Shown piece by piece: positions 2,203-19,070 of a DNA stretch of 24,458 nucleotides (position 1 is the stretch's first letter; every line of letters begins with the position of its first letter). The translations under genes were made by a program, and so were the position numbers. The DNA is from a virus, in the IMG/VR virus record IMGVR_UViG_3300033145_002347, positions 1-24,458 of that record; one strand, 5' to 3'. The notes below the pieces were generated by a model, which worked only from the letters and a program-made list of their open reading frames with translations, was not told the origin of the DNA and searched no databases.

Positions 2203-2577
2203 ATGAAATGTCCTAAATTAATAATTAAAACAGCCAGATTAAACATAGAAGACATAGAAGAGTATCTTCATCAGAACCTAACCGGTAATAAAGAAAAAGA
2301 AATCCAGAAGATGATTCGAGGTAAGGTGGATGATAGTTTTAGATTAACGCATCCAATTATCACTTTAGGGATAGGGCAAAATAGTGCAAAGAATACAGCA
2401 ATTAAGAATATATCCGACCATATGATCGATAAGCATCCAGGAATAAAGAAAAAGTTTAGGGAGAGATCCTTGGAGGAAAAGCTTTTGATAAAGGCTATAA
2501 GCAAAATCATTAGAGAAGAGAAGAAAGGCGATAGGGCTACTCAATTGGCAGTCGGAGTAATAAAAGCAATAGCATAA
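2203..2577 (+). CDS. Tagged small helical basic protein
   Basis: A 124-aa protein whose first residues, MKCPKLIIKTA, are the tag shared by several unrelated proteins in this window. After the tag the sequence is charged, basic and largely helical (residues 15-124), with no membrane segment and no family I recognise. It is the first gene after the terminator and has its own TTGACA-containing upstream region, with GGTGG acting as ribosome-binding site around 2187. If the tag directs proteins into the capsid, this would be an internal, perhaps DNA-associated, virion protein. That role is inferred from the tag only. Confidence 0.6.
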   Translation: MKCPKLIIKTARLNIEDIEEYLHQNLTGNKEKEIQKMIRGKVDDSFRLTHPIITLGIGQNSAKNTAIKNISDHMIDKHPGIKKKFRERSLEEKLLIKAISKIIREEKKGDRATQLAVGVIKAIA

Positions 2578-2614
2578 TAATTTATTTAATATAGACCACA
2601 TATTTTTATTTAAC

Positions 2615-2658
2615 TTGACAATATATTTCATTGATTCGACAAGTGATGTGTATTTAAT
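2615..2658 (+). promoter_or_regulatory. Candidate phage promoter
   Basis: TTGACA (2615-2620) is followed 22 bases later by GTGATGTGTATTTAAT (2643-2658), which matches 6095-6110 at 15 of 16 positions in the same setting. GGAGG follows, then ATG 2672. The shared 16-mer may be an extended -10 element, with TGTGTAT as the TGn-type part. The spacing from TTGACA is longer than sigma-70 uses. Confidence 0.45.
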
Positions 2659-2671
2659 TCTTGGAGGATTT

Positions 2672-3319
2672 ATGAGCAATTTAACAAACCTTATTTTTAA
2701 CTGTTCTGATGATATTATCAACCCATTAAAGAAAGTATTTAGGAAGAAGGGATATGTGTTCTTTAATGGTCCGTTTAACGTAAATTTAATAGGGATAAGA
2801 GCTAAAGAGAGAGATATAAGAAAGATGTCTGATAGATTCTTATTAGTTTACGAAGATCACCTCTGTAATTGGCATGCGGAGATTCTGGTAGGCACTACTG
2901 TCCCAGGAGAATTCTACCATTATAATTATACTAATCCGGACGGGTTAGGTATAATAGTACCTGGACAGTACAGGGGTGCGTTCAGGAAAGGGAAGCATAA
3001 GGGCAGGGATGCATTAATACAAAACACTACATTTAAAGTATATCGTGATAGTAATAAAGATGGTGTGATTGATAAGAATGTTATTAAAGATGCTCCGCCT
3101 TCTTGTAGATTTAACTTTCATCATGCAAAATCATCGATTCACCCACATAAAATATTCATTAAAAACATAGGAAGATTCTCGGAGGGGTGTCAAGTCCCCG
3201 CGAATTGGGTTAAGTATAAAATGTGTTTTGATATTATCTCATATTCTATGAAGTTATATAATAGTAAATCAATAACTTATACATTATTAGACGAAGATGA
3301 TTTAAAGATGGGAGAGTAA
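2672..3319 (+). CDS. L,D-transpeptidase-like cell-wall-active protein
   Basis: A 215-aa protein. ATG 2672 is chosen because TTGGAGG lies at 2661-2667. The in-frame ATG at 2615 would start inside the promoter-like TTGACA region. It resembles a protein common beside phage tail and lysin genes: GQYRGAFRKGKHKG (98-111), FKVYRDSNKDG (121-131), FNFHHA (147-152) and FSEGCQV (169-175). The histidine followed by S-x-G-C fits the catalytic H...SxGC of YkuD-type L,D-transpeptidases, with C173 as likely nucleophile. The probable role is to act on peptidoglycan during entry or lysis. It sits two genes upstream of the spike. The exact reaction is unproven. Confidence 0.65.
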   Translation: MSNLTNLIFNCSDDIINPLKKVFRKKGYVFFNGPFNVNLIGIRAKERDIRKMSDRFLLVYEDHLCNWHAEILVGTTVPGEFYHYNYTNPDGLGIIVPGQYRGAFRKGKHKGRDALIQNTTFKVYRDSNKDGVIDKNVIKDAPPSCRFNFHHAKSSIHPHKIFIKNIGRFSEGCQVPANWVKYKMCFDIISYSMKLYNSKSITYTLLDEDDLKMGE

Positions 3320-3538
3320 ATGCCTATTCCATGTTTAGCTCGTGGGCCAAATGGTGAGTGCCTTATTGAGAAAGATTCTGAAGAGATGAAAGAAGGTGAA
3401 TACAGCGGTTGGGATGATGATGGTAAGTGTAGATATAAAGAAAAAGGACAGATAAATTGGCAAGTCTGTAGTTATTATATGGAGGATCCATACATTAAAA
3501 TATTATGCATTAAAAAACATAAACAAAAAAGGGAATAA
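3320..3538 (+). CDS. Small cysteine-containing protein
   Basis: A 72-aa protein whose ATG directly follows the previous TAA, with GGGAGAG just upstream, so the two are translationally coupled. It has five scattered cysteines (at about residues 5, 14, 37, 50 and 62), an acidic middle and a basic tail (KKHKQKRE). The spacing does not match a classical zinc ribbon. No family is recognised. It lies between the transpeptidase-like gene and the spike, so it may be a partner or chaperone of one of them. Confidence 0.55.
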   Translation: MPIPCLARGPNGECLIEKDSEEMKEGEYSGWDDDGKCRYKEKGQINWQVCSYYMEDPYIKILCIKKHKQKRE

Positions 3539-3540
3539 AT

Positions 3541-4677
3541 ATGGAAATTATAAGAGGGTTTATTGAAGGGATGGACGATAAGGGCAGGTATACCGTGTCG
3601 ATGCTCGGGAAAAGAGAGGATAAGTTTTCTTGGATCGAGAATGTCAAACCTATCTATCAGTCTGCGAATATAACGTCTGGGAGAAAAGTTGGCAAGTCCT
3701 GCATTGTGTTAAAGATGCCTTTAGATAATTTTCTGCTTGGAGTATATACGCCTAATGAGGATATCACATCTAAGGTTATTAACGCAGGTACGGGGCAGGA
3801 ATTGTTTTGGGCTGGTAAAGATAGGGTATTAGCACTAGAATCTAATGGAGATATTGGTATTTATAGAGTATCAAGGAAAGATAATGGTGACCTTGAGATG
3901 CCGGCTGATCCCATATTGGGTTATGATAGAGAAAATGATAGAGTTGTTGTTAGTAGTGAAAACATTATGATGAATATGCTCGGAGCTGGGACAAGGGGTA
4001 ATTTAATATTTGAGCAGGACGATGTTACAGGTAATTTTGCATATCTTTTTGAAGGTAAACTATCATTATCAGATCTTTCACCTAGGTTTAGAGTTAGATT
4101 TTCTAATCCTATACTGCCTTCTACCATAAAGGGATCTCCTTTATCAAAAGATGGCATATTCGAATTAACAGTAGATAATTTAATGAGTCCAACCAGAGTA
4201 GTGCCAACAGATTTTACGGCATTAGACTCTATATCTATAAAAATGGGAGCACAAAATAATACTTTATCTGGAGTATCTTTAAGTGTAGGAGAATTTTGTG
4301 ATGTTATGATGGGACCAATGGTATCTGATCCTACTCATATGGTGTCTATTAAAACTAAATTCGGTAGTAAAATAGGGATGAAAACCGACGGTAGTATTGA
4401 ACTAAGCACATTGGAGCATAAATCTTCTGTAAAACTTAATCCTAATGGAAAGATATCAATTATTAATAATGGTATATCTCTTATTGAAATAGCACCAAAT
4501 GGACAAGTGAATATTGTCACCGCAAAAGGAATAGAACTAAAGGCATCTGCTATTGATATTAAGGGAAGTAAAATTAATATCCATACAATAGACGGCACAC
4601 CTGGGTTTAATTTAATACCAATTTGCCCATTTACGGGTGCAAAACATGTCACAAGTAAGGTGAACTCGATTGCATGA
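3541..4677 (+). CDS. Baseplate spike / gp5-VgrG-like protein
   Basis: A 378-aa protein. The N-terminal 85 residues (starting MEIIRGFIEGMDDKGRYTV) look like an OB-type beta barrel, as in gp5, gpV and VgrG spikes. Residues 235-360 are short repeating strands (FGSKIGMKTDGSIEL, VKLNPNGKISIINNG, IEIAPNGQVNIVT, GIELKASAIDIKGSKI) typical of the triple-stranded beta-helix of membrane-piercing spikes. The C-terminus ends CPFTGAKH, a tail seen on some spike and VgrG-like proteins. No lysozyme domain is visible; the transpeptidase-like protein upstream could supply wall activity. A contractile tail is likely but not proven. Confidence 0.7.
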   Translation: MEIIRGFIEGMDDKGRYTVSMLGKREDKFSWIENVKPIYQSANITSGRKVGKSCIVLKMPLDNFLLGVYTPNEDITSKVINAGTGQELFWAGKDRVLALESNGDIGIYRVSRKDNGDLEMPADPILGYDRENDRVVVSSENIMMNMLGAGTRGNLIFEQDDVTGNFAYLFEGKLSLSDLSPRFRVRFSNPILPSTIKGSPLSKDGIFELTVDNLMSPTRVVPTDFTALDSISIKMGAQNNTLSGVSLSVGEFCDVMMGPMVSDPTHMVSIKTKFGSKIGMKTDGSIELSTLEHKSSVKLNPNGKISIINNGISLIEIAPNGQVNIVTAKGIELKASAIDIKGSKINIHTIDGTPGFNLIPICPFTGAKHVTSKVNSIA

Positions 4678-4927
4678 ATTACTTAAGATGGGGAGTTATA
4701 AAAAAATAATTATAGATTTATGTAGATTAACTGAATATCATGGTATTGATGTATCAATGAGGTATATAGATATGGTGAGAGATATTTATGGTTTATGTAA
4801 AGTAGCTGATAAAAGAGCGAATACTGTAATGTTAACATTAAATAGGAAAGGGATAGTTAAAAGAGTAAGACGGTCATATTATATATCTAAGCTCTGGAAA
4901 CCCAAGGGAAGTAAGAAAAATGCTTAA
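4670..4927 (+). CDS. Small winged-helix-like protein
   Basis: An 85-aa protein. The TTG at 4670 has AAGGTG (4657-4662) in position and overlaps the spike gene by 8 bases. ATG 4688 is the alternative but has no ribosome-binding site. Residues 20-72 suggest a small winged-helix fold (VSMRYIDMVRDIYGL, then ANTVMLTLNRKGIVKRVRR and a YYIS wing). The basic C-terminus ends PKGSKKNA. It could bind DNA or be a small structural adaptor. It overlaps the next gene by 8 bases, so the group is one operon. Confidence 0.55.
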   Translation: MHELLKMGSYKKIIIDLCRLTEYHGIDVSMRYIDMVRDIYGLCKVADKRANTVMLTLNRKGIVKRVRRSYYISKLWKPKGSKKNA

Positions 4928-5447
4928 CGAAAACACTCTAAAAAATATCATTATTGATTCTACTGAAGGTAAGGAACCTGATGTTGTTTGGGAATCTATG
5001 ATTCAAGCAATAGAAGGTTACTTGAATGAGAATGCTAAGGTAAACATGGTGTTTTCCGGTACATTAGGGAATAGTCCTTCGCCATTAAACGGACCACATA
5101 CCTTTAATTTAATAACTTCTTTAGATGCAGACTATATCAAACAAACAACAAAAATAACAGGTGGCATGATCGGATTGCCTATTTCACTAACTGCTCAATT
5201 AATGATGTCAAGACCAGAGCATAATACAAGCAACACAATATCGATATTGGCACCATATCCTATACTAACATTAATGGTCGCCATCAACACATTTGGCTTA
5301 CAAAGAGACCAAGCAATGTTAGCGATTGCTACCGGTATAATAAATGGGCTAAGAAGCGCCGTAATGGTTCCGCCAATATTATCAGCCCCTGTTAATGTGG
5401 TTGCTGCTGGATCGGCAGGTGCGTTGACATTTGTGGGTATTATATAA
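4920..5447 (+). CDS. Probable virion or baseplate-associated protein
   Basis: A 175-aa protein. The first 35 residues are helical and acidic, followed by a central beta region (VNMVFSGTLGNSPSPLNGPH). A long glycine-, alanine- and proline-rich hydrophobic C-terminal half runs from about 80 to 175, ending AGSAGALTFVGII. The hydrophobic parts are broken by prolines, so burial in an assembly or membrane interaction are both possible. It overlaps the previous gene by 8 bases (ATG 4920) and closes the spike operon. I do not recognise a family; the role is inferred from its position. Confidence 0.55.
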   Translation: MLNENTLKNIIIDSTEGKEPDVVWESMIQAIEGYLNENAKVNMVFSGTLGNSPSPLNGPHTFNLITSLDADYIKQTTKITGGMIGLPISLTAQLMMSRPEHNTSNTISILAPYPILTLMVAINTFGLQRDQAMLAIATGIINGLRSAVMVPPILSAPVNVVAAGSAGALTFVGII

Positions 5448-5594
5448 GAGCTTGGAAGCGAAGTAATATAAATTGATAGATAATAGTCATTATGATGACG
5501 AATGAACAGCTAACGTAGGTAAATGTTGGTCATGTGAGATTGGGATATGTTATCTCAATGGGGTAAGATAAAAAACAGACAAGAGGATGAGACA
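5448..5594 (+). other. Intergenic region with small hairpins
   Basis: This 147-bp gap has no convincing gene. It contains GTCAT/ATGAC around TATG in the stretch GTCATTATGATGAC, and a 9-bp imperfect stem in ATTGGGATATGTTATCTCAAT around 5540-5560. A ribosome-binding site, AAGAGGA, lies at 5581-5587. I see no clear promoter or terminator. Confidence 0.4.
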
Positions 5595-5945
5595 ATGGAA
5601 TCTAAACAAATGAAATTAAAGCCTAGTTACTATTCAATTACGCCTGCAACTGTGAGATACGATGAAGATTTATGCCCAAATGCTAAGTGGTTATATAGTG
5701 AAATAACTGCCCTAAGCACTAAGGATGGATATTGTTGGGCAAAAAATAGATATTTTGCAGAACTATATCATGTAACTAAAACAACTATATCGAGATGGAT
5801 AAGGCAATTGAAAGAAAAAGGATATATTAAAGTAGAAATGATATACAAACATGATTCAAAAGAGATAGAACAAAGGAATATTTATATTATTGATGACCCT
5901 ATTAGCAAAATTGATAATACCCCCCTCTTTAGTCCAACCTCCTAA
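5595..5945 (+). CDS. Helix-turn-helix (replication-initiator-type) protein, truncated
   Basis: A 116-aa protein. ATG 5595 is preferred over ATG 5547 because AAGAGGA is eight bases upstream. It closely resembles the HTH_36 domain at the N-terminus of many phage and plasmid replisome-organiser proteins: YYSITPATVRYDEDL, then CWAKNRYFAELYHVTKTTIS as helix-turn-helix, then a wing ending KEKGYI. In that family the protein continues into a variable tail. Here the frame stops soon after SKIDNTPLFSPTS. Related tail-like sequence continues out of frame past the stop (see findings), so this looks like a truncated or decayed copy. It may still bind DNA as a small regulator. Confidence 0.65.
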   Translation: MESKQMKLKPSYYSITPATVRYDEDLCPNAKWLYSEITALSTKDGYCWAKNRYFAELYHVTKTTISRWIRQLKEKGYIKVEMIYKHDSKEIEQRNIYIIDDPISKIDNTPLFSPTS

Positions 5946-5950
5946 TAAAA

Positions 5951-5973
5951 TAGTCAATACCCCCTATTGACTA
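5951..5973. repeat. Perfect inverted repeat with a C5 loop
   Basis: TAGTCAATA (5951-5959) and TATTGACTA (5965-5973) form a perfect 9-bp stem around CCCCC. No T-tract follows on the + strand. On the - strand the stem is followed by TTTTATT, so it could stop leftward transcription, although no - strand gene is evident. It falls in the decayed tail of the HTH gene. Confidence 0.5.
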
Positions 5974-6064
5974 AAAGAGCAAGGATAATAATATAAACTT
6001 TTTAATAATACAAGATAACAAAGAAAAGAATAAAAGAAAGAGCCCTGCGTTCTTTTGGTAATTC

Positions 6065-6110
6065 TTGACAGAAAACTATTTAATATTTTATTTTGTGATG
6101 TGTATGTAAT
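6065..6110 (+). promoter_or_regulatory. Candidate phage promoter
   Basis: TTGACA (6065-6070) is followed 24 bases later by GTGATGTGTATGTAAT (6095-6110), a 15-of-16 match to the element at 2643-2658. The tagged gene at 6130 follows after AAGGAAGG. Recurrence of both parts in front of two unrelated genes is the evidence. Confidence 0.5.
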
Positions 6111-6129
6111 AAAATTAAGGAAGGTTAGT

Positions 6130-6492
6130 ATGAAATGTCCAAAAATGATAGTAAAGATAGCAGAAAGTCAACCTCAAGGGATGAAAGATTTAGCGGAGAT
6201 GGAAAAACGTATAGCAAAAAAAGAGCTTGGGACTATTGGGGTTTCAAGTGGTGCCGGAGTTGCTCTTGTTCCTCTTATTTTAGACGGCATGAAGAAAAGA
6301 TATCTTTCCCAAACAATGCCATTCGGACTTATTGGCGGCGTAACCACAGGAGCTATAATAAATTATCTTCTTAAGAAGAAAAGATTTAATACTGCTGCTG
6401 ATCAGTTAGGGTACGATGTACATAGGCAAAGGATTCCATTCGGAGGGGGCACAGAAGTTGAATTATTCAAAAGGGATATAAAAAGAAGCTAA
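6130..6492 (+). CDS. Tagged glycine-rich membrane-active protein
   Basis: A 120-aa protein. The start is ATG 6130, with AAGGAAGG upstream; an in-frame TTG or GTG at or before 6055 would run through the promoter-like region. It begins with the shared tag MKCPKMIVKIA. Two hydrophobic glycine-rich segments follow, at about 34-54 (GTIGVSSGAGVALVPLILDG) and 65-84 (FGLIGGVTTGAIINYLL). Each could span a membrane or pack as a glycine zipper, and a basic tail ends RDIKRS. The architecture matches the tagged proteins at 12573 and 12965. An internal virion protein that acts on the host membrane during DNA entry is a possible role, but this is inference. Confidence 0.6.
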   Translation: MKCPKMIVKIAESQPQGMKDLAEMEKRIAKKELGTIGVSSGAGVALVPLILDGMKKRYLSQTMPFGLIGGVTTGAIINYLLKKKRFNTAADQLGYDVHRQRIPFGGGTEVELFKRDIKRS

Positions 6493-6522
6493 GATAACCC
6501 CTTATAAGATATTATTGGGAGA

Positions 6523-6577
6523 ATAATGACAAGCACGCCACGAAGGAACTCATCTTGCTTTTCTGTCTGTGGGTGCA
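6523..6577 (+). repeat. Duplicated structured element, copy 2
   Basis: This copy matches the first at 111-146 exactly over 36 bases and again at GTGGGTGCA (6569-6577), and keeps the same stem and possible pseudoknot. It lies 73 bases upstream of the tnpB start. A second stem, AACGT/ACGTT, follows it in the stretch AACGTTGGACGACGTT. It may belong to the transposon left end or be an independent RNA element. The first copy has no transposase gene next to it. A 26-codon frame (6526-6606) starts at the ATG inside it. Confidence 0.7.
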
Positions 6578-6618
6578 ACGTTGGACGACGTTCATCCGAA
6601 AGTTAAAGAAAAAACTTG

Positions 6619-6633
6619 CTTTCTATAAGAAAG
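6619..6633 (+). repeat. Hairpin upstream of tnpB
   Basis: CTTTCT (6619-6624) and AGAAAG (6628-6633) form a perfect 6-bp stem around ATA. IS200/IS605 elements carry small subterminal hairpins recognised by TnpA as single-stranded DNA, so this may be a left-end hairpin. The exact left boundary cannot be set from this sequence. Confidence 0.35.
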
Positions 6634-6649
6634 GGATTAGGTTGTTTAT

Positions 6650-7813
6650 ATGAGTAATTTAAAATATTTCAGGTATCGGATTTATCCGAATAAAGAGCAG
6701 ACTGGCAAGATCAATCAAATGATCGGAAATGCTCGTTTTATCTATAATTGGGCTTTACAAGAAAGAATAAAAGCTTATGCGAAAGACAAGACAAGTGTTT
6801 CTGCTTTTACATTAATGAAGCAAGTTGTAGAACTCAAAAAACAACCTGAATATGAATGGTTACAATTATCGGTTGCTCAAAGTTTACAAAATTCTATTGT
6901 GAATATGGAAAAAGCATTTACGAGATTCTTTAAGCAAAAGGAAGGATTCCCTCGATTTAAAAGCAAGAAAAACAAAAGACAAACCGTGAGCTTCCCACAA
7001 AATACAAAGATTAATTTTGAGACTAATAGAATATGGATACAAAAGTTAAAATGGATTCCTGCAAGATTAAGTAGAATATTTGAAGGCAAAATCAAAACTT
7101 CTACAATAATTAAAACTTCAACTAATAAATATTTTGTGAGTATTCTTGTAGAATTACCTGAAATAAAAGTAAAGCAGAAACCAATTAGAAAGAAAACTGC
7201 TGTCGGAATTGATACAGGGATTAAAACGCTTTGCACTTTCTCTGATGGTAAAATTATAGAAAATCCAAAGCATTTAAAATCATCACTTGCAAAACTTAAA
7301 ATATTACAGAGACGAGCAAGCAAGAAAGTAAAAGGAAGTGAAAATAGAAGAAAGGCAAATCGGAAAACAGCATTACTTCACGAGCATATTGCAAATCAAA
7401 GACAAGACTTTCTACACAAACTCACAACTCAGATAGCAAATGAGTATGATACTGTTGTTGTAGAAGACTTGAATATTGCAGGAATGGTTAAAAATCATTG
7501 TCTCGCTCAGAGTATTGCAGATTTAGGACTTGGCAACTTCTGTAAACTTCTTGAATATAAACTTGCGGATCGAGGAAAGAATTATGTCAAAATAGGAAGA
7601 TTTTGTCCTTCCTCGAAATTATGCTCTGTTTGTGGATATATTAAGAAAGACTTAAAACTTTCTGATAGAGTTTGGACTTGTCCAGAGTGCAAGGTTAAAC
7701 ACGAAAGAGATCAAAATGCGTCTCAAAATATTTTAAACTTTGGATTAGAAAAACAAAATTTAATGAACAAAATACCGATGGGGCGTCGGAAATTAAAGCC
7801 TGTGGAGAAATGA
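6650..7813 (+). CDS. tnpB: TnpB, RNA-guided nuclease of the IS200/IS605 group
   Basis: A 387-aa protein of usual TnpB length and order. It has an N-terminal helical domain (YRIYPNKEQTGKINQ, ARFIYNWAL), a RuvC-like core with D188 in GIDTGIK, E272 in VVVEDLN and D354 in RDQNAS, and a zinc finger between them (C325, C328, C344, C347). All catalytic and zinc residues are present, so it could be active. TnpB cleaves DNA guided by an RNA from the 3' end of its own element and helps maintain it. No TnpA is present, so this is a non-autonomous or domesticated copy. The start at 6650 has AGGGATTAGG upstream. The stop overlaps the next ATG. Confidence 0.9.
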   Translation: MSNLKYFRYRIYPNKEQTGKINQMIGNARFIYNWALQERIKAYAKDKTSVSAFTLMKQVVELKKQPEYEWLQLSVAQSLQNSIVNMEKAFTRFFKQKEGFPRFKSKKNKRQTVSFPQNTKINFETNRIWIQKLKWIPARLSRIFEGKIKTSTIIKTSTNKYFVSILVELPEIKVKQKPIRKKTAVGIDTGIKTLCTFSDGKIIENPKHLKSSLAKLKILQRRASKKVKGSENRRKANRKTALLHEHIANQRQDFLHKLTTQIANEYDTVVVEDLNIAGMVKNHCLAQSIADLGLGNFCKLLEYKLADRGKNYVKIGRFCPSSKLCSVCGYIKKDLKLSDRVWTCPECKVKHERDQNASQNILNFGLEKQNLMNKIPMGRRKLKPVEK

Positions 7814-7866
7814 GAGATTTAGCTCATTCTGTGAAGCAGGAAGCATTCAAACGAATGTCGTCCAAT
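7790..7866 (+). ncRNA. Possible guide-RNA (omega/reRNA) 3' end and right end
   Basis: TnpB guide RNAs overlap the 3' end of the gene and finish at the element's right end. Here AATGAG and CTCATT form a 6-bp stem around 7810-7830. It is followed by GTGAAGCAGGAAGC, which resembles the conserved scaffold before the terminal hairpin in many IS605-type right ends. CATTC and GAATG follow (about 7846-7859). The usual longer terminal hairpin and GGTAGTTCA-like end are not seen, so the right end may be degenerate. The boundary is approximate. Confidence 0.35.
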
Positions 7867-7992
7867 GGGAAAGAATATTCATACAAAATGAATAAAATCT
7901 CCCATGATATTTTAGATAGAAGTGATATTAGCAAAGAAGAGAAGATCCGTTTGTTAATTAAAAAGGGATTAGTAAAAGGGGAAGAGCGATGA
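7810..7992 (+). CDS. Short ORF fused across the TnpB right end
   Basis: A 60-aa ORF whose ATG overlaps the tnpB stop (ATGA). Its first dozen residues, MRDLAHSVKQEA, resemble the ordinary C-terminal tail of TnpB-family proteins (often ending HSVKQEA), here read in another frame. The remaining 48 residues are charged and helical (DILDRSDISKEEKIRLL) and look like the end of a phage protein. I read this as the 3' remnant of a gene interrupted by the insertion, now starting in transposon sequence. Its stop overlaps the start of the pyrophosphatase-like gene, so its translation may still be coupled to that gene. Confidence 0.5.
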   Translation: MRDLAHSVKQEAFKRMSSNGKEYSYKMNKISHDILDRSDISKEEKIRLLIKKGLVKGEER

Positions 7993-8630
7993 ATTGTCCG
8001 AGAACAATCATAAAACAAGCTGGACTAAAGGCCGATATTGTCCAAGCCAGAAAAGATACCAACACTAATCCTTCTGAAGCACAGATAAAAGCAGAGAATT
8101 ATAAAAAAGGTGTATTCCGTTGGAATGAATTAGTTATAAAGATTGAAAATCCTAAGGGATCTACTCGCTCAGGTATCAGTCCTGATGGTAATAAATGGTC
8201 TATTAAGATGAAGTACGATTATGGATATATTTTTAATGGGCAGGATGGTAAAGATGGAGACAAAATCGATATCTTCATTGGCGATCATCCCGAAAGCGAA
8301 GTAGTTTATGTTATCGATCAGATGTTTAATGGTAAATTTGATGAACATAAATGTGTTATAGGTGCATTAACCGAGGAAGAAGCCAAGAAAACATATCTTG
8401 CTAACTATGAGAAGGGATGGAAGTGTGGACCTATTACCGCAATGACTGTCGATCACTTTAAGGAATGGGTAAAGAAGGGAAATACCGGCAAACCGGTCAG
8501 TAAACAGGAATTATTTAAAGTAGCTATAATGAAATGCCCAAGAATGATATATAAAACAGCTAAGATAGTTTCTGCATTAGAACGGTATCAAGGTCGTGCT
8601 GTAGAAAAGATTATGAAGAAAGTGACATAG
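7989..8630 (+). CDS. Inorganic-pyrophosphatase-like protein with two tags
   Basis: A 213-aa protein. Residues 1-11 are the shared tag MNCPRTIIKQA. Residues 41-168 match the InPase-type domain found in phage and plasmid polyvalent proteins: GVFRWNELVIKIENPKGSTR, WSIKMKYDYGYI, DGDKIDIFIGD (89-99), FDEHKCVIG, and the closing motif DHFKEWVKKGNTGKP. The DGDKID acidic cluster corresponds to the metal-binding signature of soluble pyrophosphatases. A second tag, MKCPRMIYKTA, occurs at 181-191 (8529-8561), so an internal start could also make a 33-aa peptide. Polyvalent proteins are thought to be injected with phage or plasmid DNA, which agrees with a packaging role for the tag. Activity is unproven. 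Confidence 0.75.
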   Translation: MNCPRTIIKQAGLKADIVQARKDTNTNPSEAQIKAENYKKGVFRWNELVIKIENPKGSTRSGISPDGNKWSIKMKYDYGYIFNGQDGKDGDKIDIFIGDHPESEVVYVIDQMFNGKFDEHKCVIGALTEEEAKKTYLANYEKGWKCGPITAMTVDHFKEWVKKGNTGKPVSKQELFKVAIMKCPRMIYKTAKIVSALERYQGRAVEKIMKKVT

Positions 8631-8641
8631 GAAGAGGAAAG

Positions 8642-9349
8642 ATGGCGAGAGATCTTAAAAAGGCAAGATATAGGTTTAAACAATTAACTGCCGATGAAAA
8701 GCATATTTACATTAATAACCTTGTTGAATTAGAACATAAACTCAATGGGTTAGGGTATGACGTATTCCTAACTTATGGTGGGTTATTGGCAGGAATTCGA
8801 GAAAAGAACTTAATCCTTCACGATAAAGATATCGATATTGCTATTGTCTCAAAAGCGGAGAACAATAACTATGAGACATTAAAAAAAGAAATAGATAGTG
8901 TGTATACTACTTTACCTAACCACAGAGAGATAACAATCCCAAAACCAAAAGATCAATGGGGGCGGTTACGATTTACTGTTTATGCCTCAATGCCACCGGA
9001 TGAATTTAAAAATATGTTTTATGATGTTTATTTATCATTTGAGGATCCAAGTAACCAAGAGCATCAATGCATATATAATTATTTCCCCAGGATGCATGTG
9101 ATTGGGGGAGATGCTGTAAAAAGGTGTTATACATCTTTACCTAAAGATTGGATATTCCCCTTAAAGCGTGAAGGGGAGTTAGGCGGGCATAAATTTTTAG
9201 TACCAAATAAATATGAACTTTGTTTAGAAACGTGGTATAATGATTGGAAGAGACCGGATGATCTATATTTTACTGATCTTAGAATAAAAGATATTATGTT
9301 GCATGAGAATAGTAGGATAGATAAGTTAAAAGCGAAGAACACATCATGA
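8642..9349 (+). CDS. LicD/fukutin-like nucleotidyltransferase
   Basis: A 235-aa protein with the hallmarks of the LicD family: LTYGGLLAGIREKNLILHDK (43-62) followed by DIDIAIV, where GG and the acidic DKDID cluster form the nucleotide- and metal-binding site. LicD-type enzymes transfer phosphocholine or other phospho-groups to sugars; fukutin-like relatives act on glycans. In a phage this would modify a glycan on the virion or the host surface. GAGGAAAG (8633-8640) is only one base from the ATG, so initiation may depend on coupling to the preceding gene. Its stop overlaps the start of the glycosyltransferase fusion (ATGA, 9346-9349). The donor and acceptor cannot be read from sequence. Confidence 0.75.
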   Translation: MARDLKKARYRFKQLTADEKHIYINNLVELEHKLNGLGYDVFLTYGGLLAGIREKNLILHDKDIDIAIVSKAENNNYETLKKEIDSVYTTLPNHREITIPKPKDQWGRLRFTVYASMPPDEFKNMFYDVYLSFEDPSNQEHQCIYNYFPRMHVIGGDAVKRCYTSLPKDWIFPLKREGELGGHKFLVPNKYELCLETWYNDWKRPDDLYFTDLRIKDIMLHENSRIDKLKAKNTS

Positions 9350-12300
9350 GAGAGTATAAATATAAGGTAGGTGAAAGCGAGATAGTTGTTTTAATAAGTG
9401 ATAATGAAATAACTGTTAAGGTCAAGGAGCATGAATATTATGCTCGGTATCCATTATATATTGGGGATATTTCGGAAGATTTAATAGAAGCCATGCTTTA
9501 TGTATTATTTTATGGATTAGAAGAAGTTAAAGAACCAACTGTGATACCTGAGTTGAGAGATCAACGTGAGAAGTATCAAGACATTATTGTGAGTTTCAGT
9601 GCCGGTGCAGATAGTACGGCAGCGGCATTATTAATGCCACCAGATCGTACTCATTGTATATTTTTAAAACGTGATTATGATGATGTTTATACAGGAAACC
9701 AATTAGAATTAGCTAAGATGATGGGTATGATAGTTCCCAATAACATGGAACAGATCCGCTGTCAATATGATAAACCCCATGGCTTCAATGTAGGTATGGG
9801 CTATGCGAGTTTATTAATACCGCTGGTTGATAAATTAAATGCAAAACATATTATTTTTGGAGCGATATTTGAAGATGTAAGTTTTTATTATAAAGATGAG
9901 TTGAAATATCACAAGAAGTTATCACATGCCCGAAGTCGGGATATTTTCGAAGTATTAGAAAGAATAGGAATTTATTGCAGTTATCCCTTGGCTGGGCTAA
10001 GTGAGATCTATACAAATTCAATTTCGAGAGATTCTGTATACGGCAACATTGTTTCTTCCTGTCATGTTGAGATGGAGGGCAAAGCCTGTTTAAAATGTTA
10101 TAAATGTTTACGCAAACAAGGAATGGCCGGGAATAGTTTAGATTTTAATGATCCGTTTATATTAAAGAGAATGAAAACTATAATGAGTAAAAAGCCTCTG
10201 AAAATGGCCGCAAGTACGGTCTATGGAATTCAAAAAAGTGGAAGTAATGCTCCAATGCTACAACGATATATGGATATCGATGTAAGTTTTTTGAAGCGTG
10301 TGAACGAACGCATAACGAAATTTTACTGCAAAGAAGAGATGCAGGGGATAATATTTACTAAATATAGAGAACTCGGGTTAGAGATGCAAACCGAGGATGA
10401 TGAATCAAAGATTGATGAATTCGTGAAGCGGATTAATGATGATACTTTATACGTAATTGAAACACAGCAAGCATTTAGTAGGGGACCTAAAAAAAATGTG
10501 AAGATAGTAATACTTAGCACAGCAGATTATGCCGGTTCAGGGAAAAGGATAAGAGATGCAATTAGAGAATATCACCCAGAGCACAAAATTAGATTAGTAA
10601 CATATAAGAAAGCCAAAAGAGGTTCAGATTATGTATTAACAGAGATGATACCAAAAAAGCTTATACGCAAATATAAAAATATGAGAAAAACGCATAGGTT
10701 TAGAAAGAATGAATTAGATAGAGATGAACGTATTTTAAAAAAATCTTGTAGTCGCATACAGAAATTAATTGATAACTGTGACATAGTGCATTTTAAAGGA
10801 GATGAACCACCTACTTATAAATGGGGAAAATATATAACCATTCCTAAAGATAAGAAAATTATCGTAACTGTTGGAGGTAGTGGGTTTAGAAGAGGGAAAG
10901 ATAAAACAGTACTTACTGAAGCTCGGTTTGGGTTTAAACATTACATGGAGGCAGACCTACGAACTGTATTAACATCAGAATTAAATTATGATGGATTTGA
11001 CGGGATATATACACAGCAAGCAATTGATTGCGGAAAAGAAGAAAACACATTTACTTCGCCCAATGGTCAAATAGTTATTGCCCATTCTCCATCTAATAGG
11101 ATTAAGAAGGGGACAGATAGCATTTTCCTTCCAGTAATGGAGAAACTGAGAAAAGATGGATATAATATAAAAGTCAATATTATACATGGAGTCCCTTTCG
11201 AAAGATGTGTGGAGATGAAGAAAAATGCACATATATTCTTTGACCAAACAGGCGCAGGATTTTATGGTAATTCTGCATTAGAGTCCATGCAATATGGTAT
11301 CCCTACGATTTGTCATGTAAGCAGGGAGGCAATGAGACAGTCTGGTGGCAAGATTAATAAACATCATCCTATGGAATTCTTCTATTCAAATAATCAGGCA
11401 TCATGCTATAGGGCATTTAAAAAATTATTAGATTCAGATTTAATGGAGGTATCCCGCAAGACTAAAGAATTTTGTGATAATTTTCATAGCTATAAAGTAG
11501 TAGCAGATATGTGGGATAATCTTTATCAAGGTTTATTTGCGGATAGACCAATTCCTGAAACTCCTGGCGATACAAAATTATTGCTATATCAATATAGACC
11601 AGCAATTAGGGTGTATAAATACGCAGAGACATTAATGGATATGGGTTATAATGTGACTATTGCCAATAGCGGTAGATTGATAGGCGGGCTTAATTTTCCA
11701 ATACCAATAAAGCATATAGATAATATTGATAAAAATAATTATGATCTATTTTTGAGTTTTAATACGAACATATTACCAAAGGGCATTAAAATCCCTGTAG
11801 TGCAATGTGTAGGAGATCTGAAAGGATATGAGTATAAAAATGATGCCGAAATTTGTAACTTACAGAACTGCATCTATGCTTTCTTCGTAAGCGATACTCA
11901 AAGGAAACAAGCAATAGATATAGTTCCCGAGATAGAGCATAAAAGCTCAGTAATAATTAATGGAATAGTTCATAGCTTAATGCCAAAAAAACTTGCTCCA
12001 AAATTATGGAAAAGTGGGAAGAGGACGGCTGTATGGAGCGGGACATTAAGTGCTATCCCAGGAACAAAAAGATATATGGTTCCTATATTTAATAAATATG
12101 CTGAAATTTATGATCTACATATTTACCCAAGTTTTATTCCGGTAGATTTGACAAACTATAACGGGAATTATACAATTCATAAATCAATAGAACCACAGAA
12201 ACTAATTTATGAGCTGAGTCAATATGATATTGGGCTTCTTGTATGGAATAAAATAACCTATGAGCTAAGTTGTAGTTTGCCAAATAAACTTTATGAATAT

Positions 12301-12501
12301 CATGCTGCTGGGTTGTCTATAGTGCACAATTATCATGAAGGCTGTGAATTTGTAGAACAGAAAGCTATTTCTACTCAAGGTAAAAAACATCAAAAGCCGT
12401 TATATTATTCTGATCAGAATTCCATTCTTGAGGATGGTTTAAATAGAGCATTAGGTAAAAATATTGATGAGAAAAATGATTTAGAAGAGATAACTCATTG
12501 A
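9346..12501 (+). CDS. QueC-like PP-loop ATPase fused to two glycosyltransferase-like regions
   Basis: A 1051-aa protein. Residues about 75-270 resemble QueC/ExsB PP-loop enzymes: SFSAGADST at 83-91 stands for SGGxDS, and C239-x8-C248-x2-C251-x2-C254 has the spacing of the QueC zinc site. Residues about 385-740 look like a GT-B glycosyltransferase (start KKNVKIVILSTADYAGSGKR; donor-site-like GFYGNSALESMQYGIP). Residues about 755-1030 look like a second GT-B unit (YNVTIANSGR; RTAVWSGTLS; LPNKLYEYHAAGLSIVHNYH). The first half may activate a base or other acid with ATP, and the rest may transfer sugars. Substrates are unknown. It is coupled to the LicD-like gene, and both may modify DNA or virion proteins. 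Confidence 0.7.
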   Translation: MREYKYKVGESEIVVLISDNEITVKVKEHEYYARYPLYIGDISEDLIEAMLYVLFYGLEEVKEPTVIPELRDQREKYQDIIVSFSAGADSTAAALLMPPDRTHCIFLKRDYDDVYTGNQLELAKMMGMIVPNNMEQIRCQYDKPHGFNVGMGYASLLIPLVDKLNAKHIIFGAIFEDVSFYYKDELKYHKKLSHARSRDIFEVLERIGIYCSYPLAGLSEIYTNSISRDSVYGNIVSSCHVEMEGKACLKCYKCLRKQGMAGNSLDFNDPFILKRMKTIMSKKPLKMAASTVYGIQKSGSNAPMLQRYMDIDVSFLKRVNERITKFYCKEEMQGIIFTKYRELGLEMQTEDDESKIDEFVKRINDDTLYVIETQQAFSRGPKKNVKIVILSTADYAGSGKRIRDAIREYHPEHKIRLVTYKKAKRGSDYVLTEMIPKKLIRKYKNMRKTHRFRKNELDRDERILKKSCSRIQKLIDNCDIVHFKGDEPPTYKWGKYITIPKDKKIIVTVGGSGFRRGKDKTVLTEARFGFKHYMEADLRTVLTSELNYDGFDGIYTQQAIDCGKEENTFTSPNGQIVIAHSPSNRIKKGTDSIFLPVMEKLRKDGYNIKVNIIHGVPFERCVEMKKNAHIFFDQTGAGFYGNSALESMQYGIPTICHVSREAMRQSGGKINKHHPMEFFYSNNQASCYRAFKKLLDSDLMEVSRKTKEFCDNFHSYKVVADMWDNLYQGLFADRPIPETPGDTKLLLYQYRPAIRVYKYAETLMDMGYNVTIANSGRLIGGLNFPIPIKHIDNIDKNNYDLFLSFNTNILPKGIKIPVVQCVGDLKGYEYKNDAEICNLQNCIYAFFVSDTQRKQAIDIVPEIEHKSSVIINGIVHSLMPKKLAPKLWKSGKRTAVWSGTLSAIPGTKRYMVPIFNKYAEIYDLHIYPSFIPVDLTNYNGNYTIHKSIEPQKLIYELSQYDIGLLVWNKITYELSCSLPNKLYEYHAAGLSIVHNYHEGCEFVEQKAISTQGKKHQKPLYYSDQNSILEDGLNRALGKNIDEKNDLEEITH

Positions 12502-12530
12502 CAAAAGATATTATAAATTATTAATATCTT
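12498..12530 (+). promoter_or_regulatory. TTGACA box with overlapping inverted repeat
   Basis: TTGACA (12498-12503) overlaps the end of the fusion gene. AAGATATTA (12505-12513) and TAATATCTT (12522-12530) form a perfect 9-bp inverted repeat right after it. TAATAT (12522-12527) at an 18-bp gap could be a -10 box. The repeat would then overlap the promoter as an operator, or act as a weak AT-rich terminator for the gene upstream. Confidence 0.45.
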
Positions 12531-12572
12531 GTTGTTAAAAATATAGTGTGGATTTATAAAAGGAGAAAACCT

Positions 12573-12947
12573 ATGCAGTGTCCAAGATTAATCATAAAGA
12601 TAGCACAAGATGTTACGCTAACTCCAATGGAAGAAGATGATCTTAAAAAGAAGCAATTAAAGAAAGGATGGCCGTGGGCAATCCCTCATGCAGTTGGGTT
12701 AGGCGGCATATTAGAAGGTGGGAGGCGTATTCATGGGAACAATTATCCATTGACAAAATATGGACCTTACGCATTTAATACTTGGCAGAAGAAGCTTTTA
12801 CGAAGAGGAAGAATGGGAGGTGGTGTAATTGCGGGACTTGGAGTAGGTCTTGCTGCACTTTCTGCGTATGGTGCGCATCGTTCAGGTAAGAGAGTTAAAG
12901 ATGAGTTTTTGAAGGAAAAAGAAATAAATAGACTTATGGAAACATAA
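12573..12947 (+). CDS. Tagged glycine-rich membrane-active protein
   Basis: A 124-aa protein starting at ATG 12573 after AAAGGAG (12559-12565); earlier in-frame starts lack a ribosome-binding site. Its N-terminus is the shared tag MQCPRLIIKIA. An acidic/basic stretch follows (MEEDDLKKKQLKKG), then WAIPHAVGLGGILEGG and the hydrophobic GMGGGVIAGLGVGLAALSAY-type region around residues 84-104, then a charged tail. The hydrophobic part could insert in a membrane. It is adjacent to a second tagged glycine-zipper gene, and the pair is likely co-expressed. No database family is recognised. Confidence 0.6.
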   Translation: MQCPRLIIKIAQDVTLTPMEEDDLKKKQLKKGWPWAIPHAVGLGGILEGGRRIHGNNYPLTKYGPYAFNTWQKKLLRRGRMGGGVIAGLGVGLAALSAYGAHRSGKRVKDEFLKEKEINRLMET

Positions 12948-12964
12948 GAAAAAGGAGAGCGAGT

Positions 12965-13390
12965 ATGAGATGTCCAGAAATGGTTGTAAAAATTGCAGAG
13001 ATGGGGATAGCCCCATTTGATACATCAAAGGATGACTATCAGTCCTTTATGAATATTGTTAAAGAATATGCTAACAGGTTATTAGGCTCGACTACTTATG
13101 GAGTTGCTGGCGGTGGTGCTGGTGCTGGTCTTGGAGCAGGGATTGGTAGAATAATTGGTGGACGTGCAGGTACTGGACCGGGAGCAGTTGTAGGTGGTTA
13201 TTTGGGAGCTATCCCAGCGGCGCTTGCTGGTGATGTTACTTCTTTAAGGAAAACTGAAAAAGCTACAGGTGTGAAACCAACAGGGTTTGGACAGTATATG
13301 GGTAGGAACTTCCTTGGTAGTAGTTTTGGACCTATTGGTGACTGGGCTGCATCTAGAAAACTACAAAAACATCCAGAAGTAAAAGAATAA
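12965..13390 (+). CDS. Tagged glycine-zipper protein
   Basis: A 141-aa protein beginning with the shared tag MRCPEMVVKIA and preceded by AAAGGAG. Residues 41-80 are almost entirely glycine, alanine, valine and isoleucine with GxxxG spacing (GVAGGGAGAGLGAGIGRIIG, then GPGAVVGGYLGAIPAALAG). This is a clear glycine zipper of the kind that forms membrane-embedded oligomers. A soluble basic tail follows (GRNFLGSSFGPIGDWAASRK). Together with 6130 and 12573 it forms a set of tagged membrane-active proteins that could be internal virion proteins ejected to help DNA cross the envelope. That role is inferred. Confidence 0.6.
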   Translation: MRCPEMVVKIAEMGIAPFDTSKDDYQSFMNIVKEYANRLLGSTTYGVAGGGAGAGLGAGIGRIIGGRAGTGPGAVVGGYLGAIPAALAGDVTSLRKTEKATGVKPTGFGQYMGRNFLGSSFGPIGDWAASRKLQKHPEVKE

Positions 13391-13402: not shown

Positions 13403-13741
13403 ATGCCCTCAGTTAGTCTTTCGCAACAACGTGCCATGGGAATGGCGTATGCAACGAGAACAGGTAAGATGTCTGCCGGTAATCTAAGAGGTGCTGCAAA
13501 ACGCATTTATGAGAGTAATATGAGCACGGAAGCGATAAGAGATTATGCTAAAACAAAGACTTATAAATTGCCAAGAAAGATCAAAGAAGCAGCGATTGGT
13601 AAGGTTATGCTCAGTCTTGGTAAGAAAGTAATAAAGAATCCACTTAAGGTAGGGTTCGGGGCATTATATGCGAGTAGTTTAAAAAAGCCATTTGAGAAGT
13701 CATTAAAATCAATAGCGAGGAAGCCATTGAAAAAGCTGTAG
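13403..13741 (+). CDS. DUF3008-like small basic protein
   Basis: A 112-aa protein with a good ribosome-binding site (AGGAG). Its first 55 residues match the DUF3008 pattern, which usually reads S-x-x-Q-Q-R-x-M-G-M-A and then a helix and FAxTKHxGLP. Here it is SLSQQRAMGMAYATRTGKMS and, later, IRDYAKTKTYKLPRKI. The C-terminal half is strongly basic with GKKVIKNPLKVGFGALYASS and ends in KKL. Such proteins are common in phages but have no assigned function. Unlike its two upstream neighbours it has no CP-type tag. Confidence 0.6.
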   Translation: MPSVSLSQQRAMGMAYATRTGKMSAGNLRGAAKRIYESNMSTEAIRDYAKTKTYKLPRKIKEAAIGKVMLSLGKKVIKNPLKVGFGALYASSLKKPFEKSLKSIARKPLKKL

Positions 13742-13802: not shown

Positions 13803-15929
13803 ATGAGCAAGTTATTTAAGGTAGTAACGCCATTTGAAAATATTAAATTGGCGATGTTGAATGTTGAAGCAGAAGATGTAAGTAAATGGTCTGTGTTAGT
13901 AGATGAGTATTTAACAGATAAATATCCATCGTTATCATCCGGTATTAGACCTGTTAATTTCCAATCAAAAGATCCGGAAGTCGGTAACGCTATAGGCAGC
14001 GCAGAATATAACAATCTTGGTGTCTCTCTTACTATCCCTATTTTCATAGAAGAGTTTAAGCTAAAAGAGCCGGATATTGCGTTAAAAGGCAAAAAAGTTA
14101 TTCCATTAGATATAGGATTAATTAATAGCCTTAGCACAAAAGAACAAATGGAAGGCACGGTTGTAGAAAACCCGGAAGAAGATGATATCACTGATCAGAC
14201 GGAATTTCTTACAAGTTTATTCGAGACAACAGATACTGATCAAGATGGTAACCCTATGTATTATAAGGGTGCAAAAACGGTTTCCAAGAAAGTAGCGGAG
14301 GTATATGATTCTTTATTAGGTGCAGATAAATTATTTTCTGATCGGATAAAGAAGCATATTAAATGTGCAGATACGATTTATGAAAAGGTAGAGATTATAA
14401 AAGTTGCTTCATTAGAAGATGAGAATAATCCTTATCATTATAATTGTGTTGTGCTTAAAAAGATAGGTGGAGATTTGAAACATGAGTATCTTGAAGATAT
14501 ATCCGAGTCAGAGCTTAAGGTTCTTCAAGGTAAAATAAATAAAGAAGCGGAATGGGTATCCTTTGATCCCAAACAGATAGATCCACCAAAGATTAAAGTT
14601 ATAGAAGAAGCTGGAACTTATGATATATCATTTAAAAAGTCTATTGTAAATGTACCGGTATTCACAAAGATATTCACGATTGAAAGTACAGGGAGAAGAA
14701 ACATAAAACCACTTACTATAGTAGATACATACCCGGTAAAATGGCAAAATAATGGCGATGTAGATAATGAGACAAGCGGTAATAATATCGGACTGCCGGA
14801 GTCAGGAAAGGGAGTATTCAAAAAAAGTGATAAGATGACCGGTTGGATGTACGATAAAGTATATGGTGTTAGGAACGATAATAATGATCGTTTTCCTATG
14901 TCGGGAGGAGCAGAAAGCGGTACGCATATAGATTTGCGTAATATCACTGATATACAAGATTATGTTGGTGAACATATTACTTTCTATGCTGATGGTGGGA
15001 AAATATCTTCTCCGTATAAAGTTGTAAAAGCCATGAGTTATGCTCTTGGTGAAAAAAGAGAACAGATTATTATTATAGATGTAGAATCAATTGCTACTAA
15101 AAGTAAATTATCTTTATGGCTTGATTGTCAAGTAGATCGTCCTTTAAAAGGAAATATAAGGAAGATGCAACATAATAAATATAAGGCAGTTACAGACACG
15201 GCACATCCACTATGGCTTATTCCCACTCAATATAGGGTGATGTTGTTACCTGGTAAACGAGAAGTACCGGTTAAACCAAGGGATTATTATGGTAATTATT
15301 TTAAAGATGAGTTTGGTAAGTATGATAAAGAACTTATCCTGACTACAAGTAATTATAATCCTACGAAAGTAGATATTAAAATTACTGAAGATGAGAAAGA
15401 TCCTGTTGTTGTCTCTGAAGTTGGCAAAATCGCTGCTGATATGTATATCCAGCATTTTATGGGAAGGGATGATGTGACTATTAATATGTTACAAAAGGAT
15501 AAGGGATACCTTATTGCGAAAACAGCAGAAGAGCCACCTATGAAAACTATCAGCAAAGTGGCTTTATTTAAAGATTATAGAGGTGAGTGGTTAAAGCTTG
15601 CGTATGTAATATTGAATAATGAAGATATCTCTAAATATTCAAAAGCAATTGCAAAAGATCCAACAAAATATCGTAGCGTTGCTAAAGTGGCTGAAATGGA
15701 GTCGTTAGTTGATGATCTTGTAGGTTTAGAATATGTTGATAACGATAATATCGGAGATACTAATGATGTTGAATACGGTATCGAAAATATTATGGATAAA
15801 ATAGGACAATTATTAATGTTATCTAGAATGGGCAAGAATAATATACCTGAAAATATATTAATGAGGGCTATGAAGGCATTAACAAAGTTATTGAATGAAA
15901 TAAGAGGAAACGAACCTGAGGTAGGATAA
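13803..15929 (+). CDS. Large virion structural protein candidate
   Basis: A 708-aa protein with TTTAGGAGG upstream. It is mostly beta-rich with short helices and has no enzyme motif I recognise. The last 150 residues are helical (residues about 570-700). The tripeptide K-[VITL]-A occurs eight times by hand count (for example IKLAML, SKKVAEV, IKVASL, AKTAEE, SKVALF, LKLAYV, AKVAEM), which suggests processing sites. Its length and place upstream of the terminase fit a head, neck or tail-sheath-like component, but I cannot say which. Nothing identifies the major capsid protein in this window. The next gene begins one base after its stop. Confidence 0.5.
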   Translation: MSKLFKVVTPFENIKLAMLNVEAEDVSKWSVLVDEYLTDKYPSLSSGIRPVNFQSKDPEVGNAIGSAEYNNLGVSLTIPIFIEEFKLKEPDIALKGKKVIPLDIGLINSLSTKEQMEGTVVENPEEDDITDQTEFLTSLFETTDTDQDGNPMYYKGAKTVSKKVAEVYDSLLGADKLFSDRIKKHIKCADTIYEKVEIIKVASLEDENNPYHYNCVVLKKIGGDLKHEYLEDISESELKVLQGKINKEAEWVSFDPKQIDPPKIKVIEEAGTYDISFKKSIVNVPVFTKIFTIESTGRRNIKPLTIVDTYPVKWQNNGDVDNETSGNNIGLPESGKGVFKKSDKMTGWMYDKVYGVRNDNNDRFPMSGGAESGTHIDLRNITDIQDYVGEHITFYADGGKISSPYKVVKAMSYALGEKREQIIIIDVESIATKSKLSLWLDCQVDRPLKGNIRKMQHNKYKAVTDTAHPLWLIPTQYRVMLLPGKREVPVKPRDYYGNYFKDEFGKYDKELILTTSNYNPTKVDIKITEDEKDPVVVSEVGKIAADMYIQHFMGRDDVTINMLQKDKGYLIAKTAEEPPMKTISKVALFKDYRGEWLKLAYVILNNEDISKYSKAIAKDPTKYRSVAKVAEMESLVDDLVGLEYVDNDNIGDTNDVEYGIENIMDKIGQLLMLSRMGKNNIPENILMRAMKALTKLLNEIRGNEPEVG

Positions 15930-18707: not shown

Positions 18708-19070
18708 ATGGAATTAGTAAAAATTAGAGAATTGAGTAAGGTTGCTAGTGAAAACATAGCAAAAGAGGCAATAGAGGATGAATTAATTGGGCAGGTAGCT
18801 ATCGAGAGTATGAACAGATCTCTTGGAAGCGGCGAAACCAAGGTTGCAGAGGAAGCTTTGCAAAGGTATAATGATCTAGTGGGAGATGGTGAGGGTAATG
18901 TGAAGGTTGCCAAAATAGGTGATTTTCTTAAGCTTCTAAAAACTAATCCTAAAAGCAATGAACTTGATAAGGCTTTTAAATTATATGAAAAGGATACTGG
19001 TAAGAGTAAAAATGACATGACAAATATAGATATTGATAGTTATGTTAAGAAAATAAGAAAAATATCATAG
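18708..19070 (+). CDS. Small KxA-rich head-region protein
   Basis: A 120-aa acidic, helical protein. K-V-A occurs three times in 120 residues (LSKVASE, TKVAEEA, VKVAKIG). It lies between the terminase and the portal-like gene, in a group led by its own TTGACA box. The helical charged composition, small size and position agree with a scaffold or core component, but no family match is recognised. If K-x-A is a cleavage site, this protein would be cut near residues 13, 46 and 69. Confidence 0.5.
   Translation: MELVKIRELSKVASENIAKEAIEDELIGQVAIESMNRSLGSGETKVAEEALQRYNDLVGDGEGNVKVAKIGDFLKLLKTNPKSNELDKAFKLYEKDTGKSKNDMTNIDIDSYVKKIRKIS

Follow-up and report, generated by a model that had tools for sequence, protein, structure and literature searches.

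The virus record IMGVR_UViG_3300033145_002347 from IMG/VR, analysed here as one stretch of 24,458 nucleotides (nt; "the window" means all of it), encodes a recurring 11-residue tag, MxCPxx[IV][IVY]KxA, which opens five proteins with unrelated bodies and occurs a sixth time inside one of them. The tag is real at the protein level, and most likely it is part of a T4-like propeptide system whose cleavage motif is new and whose addresses are specific to single lineages. In particular, we hold it very probable that the tag is an N-terminal capsid-targeting propeptide and that its K-x-A part is a site for the head protease; cutting, loading, injection and scaffold binding are inferred.

The tag and its spread

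The tag pattern, run in its DNA form on the window, gave exactly six matches, all on the + strand, and 0 matches in 100 dinucleotide-preserving shuffles; chance as its source was thus rejected. The earlier note on this DNA had reported six copies, and all six were located where it had placed them; the tagged proteins, on the other hand, are five rather than six, because the copy at 8529 lies inside the open reading frame (ORF) 7989-8630. The copies and the one recognizable enzyme domain are (aa, amino acids):

2203..2235, + strand: tag copy 1, MKCPKLIIKTA, N-terminus of ORF 2203-2577 (124 aa, basic, helical)
6130..6162, + strand: tag copy 2, MKCPKMIVKIA, N-terminus of ORF 6130-6492 (120 aa, glycine-rich)
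7989..8021, + strand: tag copy 3, MNCPRTIIKQA, N-terminus of ORF 7989-8630
8076..8474, + strand: inorganic pyrophosphatase (InPase) domain of the polyvalent type, spanning residues 30-162 of ORF 7989-8630 (PF18823, E=1.1e-47)
8529..8561, + strand: tag copy 4, MKCPRMIYKTA, inside ORF 7989-8630, with the pyrophosphatase on its N-terminal side and a C-terminal tail of 22 residues after it
12573..12605, + strand: tag copy 5, MQCPRLIIKIA, N-terminus of ORF 12573-12947 (124 aa, glycine-rich)
12965..12997, + strand: tag copy 6, MRCPEMVVKIA, N-terminus of ORF 12965-13390 (141 aa, glycine-zipper-like)

Gene starts were assigned mechanically, and five copies begin with ATG (2203, 6130, 7989, 12573 and 12965): a clear GGA-type ribosome-binding site precedes those at 6130, 12573 and 12965, and a weaker G-rich one those at 2203 and 7989. 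The bodies are of the types that the earlier note had named, i.e., helical and basic (2203), glycine-rich (6130, 12573 and 12965) and a pyrophosphatase domain (7989), the last being the single known domain of its protein by Pfam. Its description of them as unrelated also stands, as blastp of the tag-stripped window proteins (n=5) grouped no pair. Glycine-rich segments common to several tagged proteins could be taken as a trace of common descent, with the tag as the best-kept part of diverged paralogues. However, the tag sits on enzymes as well as on small unrelated proteins, the bodies form no cluster, in one pyrophosphatase unit the tag is variously N-terminal, internal or represented by a bare K-x-A, and other lineages show the same design with different tags (see below), so that common descent is highly improbable.

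Relatives of the window were found via the terminase (three virus contigs, 80-84% identity) and via the tag pattern plus the pyrophosphatase (two further contigs). The motif search of related genomes that the earlier note had proposed recovered the tag in four related virus contigs: the 11-residue form is also present in G001/G002, G003 and G005, and G004 has mostly a one-residue-shorter form, M[KN]CPx[IV][IV]KxA. Altogether ~32 tagged ORFs with some 20 body families were found on five contigs (the window and four relatives), after five of the 37 regular-expression hits had been dropped on inspection. Bodies conserved in relatives and stripped of the tag, which by the earlier note would refute a loading function, were not seen for three tagged ORFs of the window: the homologues of ORF 2203 in G003 (23987) and G005 (6211), of ORF 12573 in G001 (5012) and of ORF 12965 in G003 (7024) all retained the tag. 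For ORF 6130 no homologue was found among the four relatives. Relatives of the pyrophosphatase carry the tag at the same junction in G001, G003 and G005 and a bare K-x-A in G004.

Among 25 copies from four genomes, Met, Lys9 and [IV]7 were invariant, and Cys3, Pro4 and Ala11 were each found in 24 of the 25. Lys9 was encoded by AAA in 12 copies and by AAG in 13, the conserved Ala by all four codons, and the 20 bases 5' of the copies had only a Shine-Dalgarno-like stretch in common. Constraint on the tag acts at the protein level. That copies stand at start codons, and that the genes bearing them are mosaic and swapped, would suit an element of DNA or RNA, such as a cassette repeated for translation start or recombination that codes only incidentally. 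Such an element was rejected, and we leave it next to no probability, because codons vary synonymously at invariant residues, only the ribosome site is common upstream, and internal copies are in frame.

By DNA the window matched no known phage, and by protein its closest known phages reach only 20-30% identity. A scan of cellular genomes with the Cys-Pro (CP) pattern returned 69 contigs with one match each, mostly in short, often antisense-looking frames and some in TusA-like proteins, and cellular tag carriers were rejected. The one-residue-shorter CP pattern gave six stretches in viral contigs and no convincing tagged ORF. In G001/G002 (L002 19286 and L003 10541), tag MKCPRMIVKEA opens an ORF which on both contigs ends after 31 residues; it may be a cargo gene that is broken, or it may encode a very short peptide as cargo.

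K-x-A in the head module and a candidate protease

The end of the tag, K-x-A, recurs outside it. Counted over residues 1-16 of 234 ORFs, K.A was seen 62 times versus 18.1 expected. It was enriched in head-module proteins (118 versus 64, z 7.1) and in the tagged and inner set (166 versus 100, z 8.1), and not in tail proteins (z 0.4) or early and non-virion ORFs (z -0.7); control motifs were flat in this comparison. Moreover, at 50 diverse protease loci K.A ranked first among the 400 X.Z motifs counted up to 4 kb from the protease gene (2164 versus 1081 expected), and farther than 4 kb it was at background (733 versus 704 expected). The context near the protease is [LMF]-[EVQT]-K-x-A-[SEA], with Ser often following the Ala; I.E and L.E were only slightly raised there. 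Seven shared K-x-A columns were counted in the 708-aa protein and five in the 455-aa inner protein; the terminase and its 340-aa neighbour have none. A Pfam search with the major capsid protein (MCP), with the scaffold-like proteins and with the 708-aa protein gave no family. The K-x-A sites of the window in this group are:

13845..13853, + strand: conserved K-L-A close to the N-terminal end of the probable head protein 13803-15929 (708 aa); K-x-A column in all five genomes
18738..18746, + strand: K-V-A near the N-terminus of ORF 18708-19070 (inner/head-like); its homologues have an N-terminal K-x-A too
19189..19197, + strand: conserved K-V-A in ORF 19087-20454, which probably encodes an inner head protein and has several K-x-A sites, with five columns shared in its family; K-x-A column in all five genomes

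No CP tag was seen in the head-module loci of other protease carriers. As judged from these sequences, K-x-A is a general motif and the CP part is confined to the small lineage of the window.

A candidate for the enzyme is a 660-670-aa protein of the relatives, adjoining the scaffold-like and major capsid genes, whose domain 34-300 was modelled at a predicted local distance difference test score of 90.6. By gene order, it lies in the head module along with the scaffold and MCP genes in G001, G003 and G004 and in Salmonella phage Arash. In VIA-align the domain model scored Z 9.4 with the protease of varicella-zoster virus (VZV) and Z 9.3 with T4 gp21, versus at most 6.9 for unrelated MCE-domain rows. 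PHROG 18299 (head maturation protease) was matched by 43 of 50 homologues (E<=1e-3), Pfam S78 by one member only, and H102 and S153, invariant in the 50 homologues, are the putative catalytic His and Ser. A sequence search of the PDB with the protease profile returned nothing; the fold is called from the VIA-align scores and from the family taken as a whole. The gene is present in G001-G004, and the family is widespread in virus contigs.

K-x-A also marks the edges of this protease domain and recurs in its presumable substrates. Nearly all of 59 distinct homologues have [FLM][EVT]KxA directly before the domain and KVA[S/A] directly after it. In the MCP, K-x-A lies just upstream of the conserved AFxRxKLRE segment in 45 of 46 genomes, the exception being G004, and the scaffold-like proteins of Arash and Vibrio phage D69 hold many K-x-A-[SA] sites. 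Paired sites were not found in the proteases of Mycobacterium phage I3 and Gordonia phage Stormageddon. Bacillus phage G gp19 (L158 8841-9743) has them (GLVKTA ... ILEKVAS), which suggests that a K-x-A protease may extend to phage G, whose head module is not clearly enriched in K.A. K-x-A is thus the apparent recognition motif of a head maturation protease resembling T4 gp21 and herpesvirus assemblin. The earlier note had suggested a cut after K-x-A; enrichment in the head module, the protease edges, the MCP N-terminus and the lack of signal in tail and non-virion proteins all point to such a cut.

We therefore propose, by analogy with the known systems discussed below, that the M-x-C-P part would be a lineage-specific address, probably binding the phage scaffold core so that the cargo is built into the prohead, and that the [IV]-K-x-A part would be recognized by the head maturation protease and cut after Ala. 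The same K-x-A signal would serve to process the scaffold, the MCP, the protease itself and the inner head proteins. Alternatively, the tag might be a docking peptide that stays on the protein uncleaved and binds the scaffold or the inner wall of the capsid, K-x-A being part of its docking surface: C and P at positions 3-4 are better conserved than a K-x-A cut needs, and in T4 the two functions can be separated, residues 4 and 7 acting in targeting and 8 and 10 in processing (PMC9026906). Yet scaffold, protease, MCP and inner proteins all have K-x-A without CP, the protease also at the borders of its own domain, and internal tags are preceded by a second K-x-A, better suited to excision; we thus regard permanent docking as unlikely.

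Several observations weigh against a cleaved propeptide or limit its support: i) no cultured member of the CP-tag lineage was found; ii) the z of ~41 for K.A near the protease counts related proteins repeatedly, so that the twofold effect size is the safer figure; iii) Foldseek of the protease model gave no significant PDB match; iv) the first-listed homologue (the G001/G002 protease) alone matched PHROG 18299 weakly (E=0.018); v) the window and G005 stop short of the protease gene region, and the protease of the tag lineage is therefore known only from four relatives; vi) over all virion-annotated proteins of Arash, plain K.A was just slightly up (151 versus 137). In Arash, the contextual motif (60 versus 38) and the head proteins do stand out.

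Mass spectrometry of Arash virions listed the RNA polymerase beta subunit and gp100 among the particle proteins, together with metabolic enzymes, in a table that gives proteins without their N-termini (PMC10585845). Both proteins have a very early K-x-A (MPKSA-SE in the beta subunit and MEKQA-SF in gp100), which is consistent with very short propeptides that would end there. The abundant virion beta subunit (L137 1094-5671) has a possible five-residue K-x-A propeptide.

Internal tags, other addresses and neighbouring genes

Several proteins carry the tag or K-x-A between their parts, and the window itself offers two such sites:

8517..8525, + strand: K-V-A just ahead of the internal tag, LFKVA-I-MKCPRMIYKTA, after the pyrophosphatase
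13568..13591, + strand: internal LPRKIKEA in ORF 13403-13741, where the G003 homologue starts with tag MNCPKVILKQA

With K-V-A preceding the internal tag at 8529, cuts at both sites would free that tag. InPase ORFs are longer in G001 and G005. A 460-aa ORF of G001 has the order domain, KQA, MDYPKTIIKEA, domain, KTA, MKCPRAIIKTA, pyrophosphatase; a 615-aa ORF of G004 consists of the tag, an N-terminal domain, K-I-A, the pyrophosphatase, tag-like MNCPSILQKKS and a zincin-like stretch (weak M91). The tag or K-x-A thus appears to serve also as a spacer between domains, and this arrangement suggests that polyvalent proteins may be cut apart inside the head: the protease would free single enzymes there before injection. 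J-domain (DnaJ-like) segments lie in K-x-A-bearing proteins of G004 (L047 12418-13299 and L048 3457-4341, both on the - strand), and a tagged 429-aa protein of G005 has an HPD motif by eye.

Other shared N-termini were found at protease loci. One is MxNxYLEK[IV]A, and another, Mx(x)xIEK[LIV]A, heads seven proteins of a single contig whose bodies are unrelated. A scan for MxNxYLEK[IV]A yielded 74 copies on 39 contigs (22 of them with at least two copies) in 38 body clusters. These contigs were picked by the tag alone, and 33 of the 39 encode the protease (E below 1e-71), versus none of 23 controls. The controls were contigs that the CP patterns had hit by chance; they are shorter on the whole, several being at least 50 kb. 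Several proteins (L060, L062, L066, L080 and L086) carry M(x)[DS]KAxxxFxKLA, which may be another lineage tag.

A non-head role was also weighed, in which the tag would sort proteins to the cell surface, a membrane or a compartment of the phage, or else form a regulatory N-terminus (a degron or a Cys-Pro metal or thiol site). Several tagged bodies are glycine-rich and membrane-like, and the tag recalls the CPxP motif of TusA-like sulfur carriers, frames of which appearance came up in the cellular scan. On the other hand, i) the tag has no hydrophobic segment, occurs internally as well and ends in the head-specific K-x-A; ii) related lineages swap CP for other residues and retain K-x-A; iii) tagged bodies have no TusA match in Pfam, and the second Pro of CPxP is not in the tag. 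A non-head signal is very unlikely, even more so than permanent docking.

We also consider a wider reading probable, with rather less confidence than the propeptide itself: one general K-x-A signal and exchangeable lineage addresses (MxCP..., MxNxYLE..., MxxIE...) would form a packaging code across a large phage clade, in which any gene that gains the local address would become head cargo, multidomain polyvalent proteins would be polyproteins from which single effectors are cut within the capsid, and each address would co-evolve with a receptor on the scaffold of its lineage.

Other genes of the window lie among the tagged ones. An IS200/605-type TnpB (OrfB) gene (6650-7813; PF01385, E=1.2e-32, with a Cas12f1-like TNB domain) is placed between two tagged genes. 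A 1051-aa ORF (9346-12501) has a QueC/DUF6395-like N-terminal part fused to glycosyltransferase-like parts, which are separate genes in G001 and G003. The LicD-like protein 8642-9349 (weak match, E=1.9e-4) adjoins the sugar genes, suggesting a surface-modifying cassette within the cargo region.

Known systems and meaning

The nearest counterpart is the T4 capsid-targeting sequence (CTS), 10 residues with a targeting half and a processing half, behind which gp21 cuts after L/I-x-E (PMC9026906). As with the CTS of IPI, IPII, IPIII and Alt, a presumed propeptide of about ten residues stands at the N-termini of small mosaic proteins that are unrelated and often basic, a putative targeting half precedes a short candidate protease motif, a gp21-type protease is encoded in the head module, and the motif is found in scaffold and MCP. 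Unlike in T4, the sequence at the presumed cut is [hydrophobic]-x-K-x-A, nothing in T4 corresponds to the CP address, domains of the cargo are separated by tags as well, and packaging is predicted from sequence. The L/I-x-E consensus was examined and is absent from the tag, which was therefore not classed as a T4 CTS. By this analogy and by linkage, the tag would indeed load internal virion proteins, as the earlier note had proposed.

The prohead protease systems of phiKZ and SPN3US likewise have a three-residue motif, propeptides on several inner head proteins and a large load of inner proteins; however, SPN3US gp245 cuts after A-x-E (PMC10052503) and the phiKZ enzyme after Glu (PMC9026906), and a short shared address was not found in descriptions of these systems. 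The assemblins of herpesviruses cleave the bond between Ala and Ser. The candidate protease would share with them the fold of its modelled domain (VZV, Z 9.4) and a cleavage motif at its own C-terminal edge, whereas the similarity is distant and structural only, and the conserved Lys and the cargo tags are phage features. In phage P1 the N-terminal signal of DarB suffices to bring a reporter into the head and the cargo is polyvalent-type, but the same report found no consensus among the N-termini of the P1 Dar proteins (PMC9024508). Polyvalent proteins join InPase, zincin-like and other early-phase domains, are phage-encoded and are thought to be packaged and injected (PMC5512222), as is proposed here, where the units differ in being bounded by tags or K-x-A sites.

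In the open-access subset of the literature that was searched, we found no paper that names K-x-A as a head-protease motif. For the predicted specificity, with Lys at P3 and Ala at P1, these searches gave no earlier report; the described proteases of T4, phiKZ and SPN3US cut after Glu. If it is true, head cargo, and hence candidate injected effectors, could be read from sequence in widespread, mostly uncultured large phages; moreover, there would be a simple route from a polyvalent protein to separate effectors, and the short tags would be candidates for loading proteins into phage heads.

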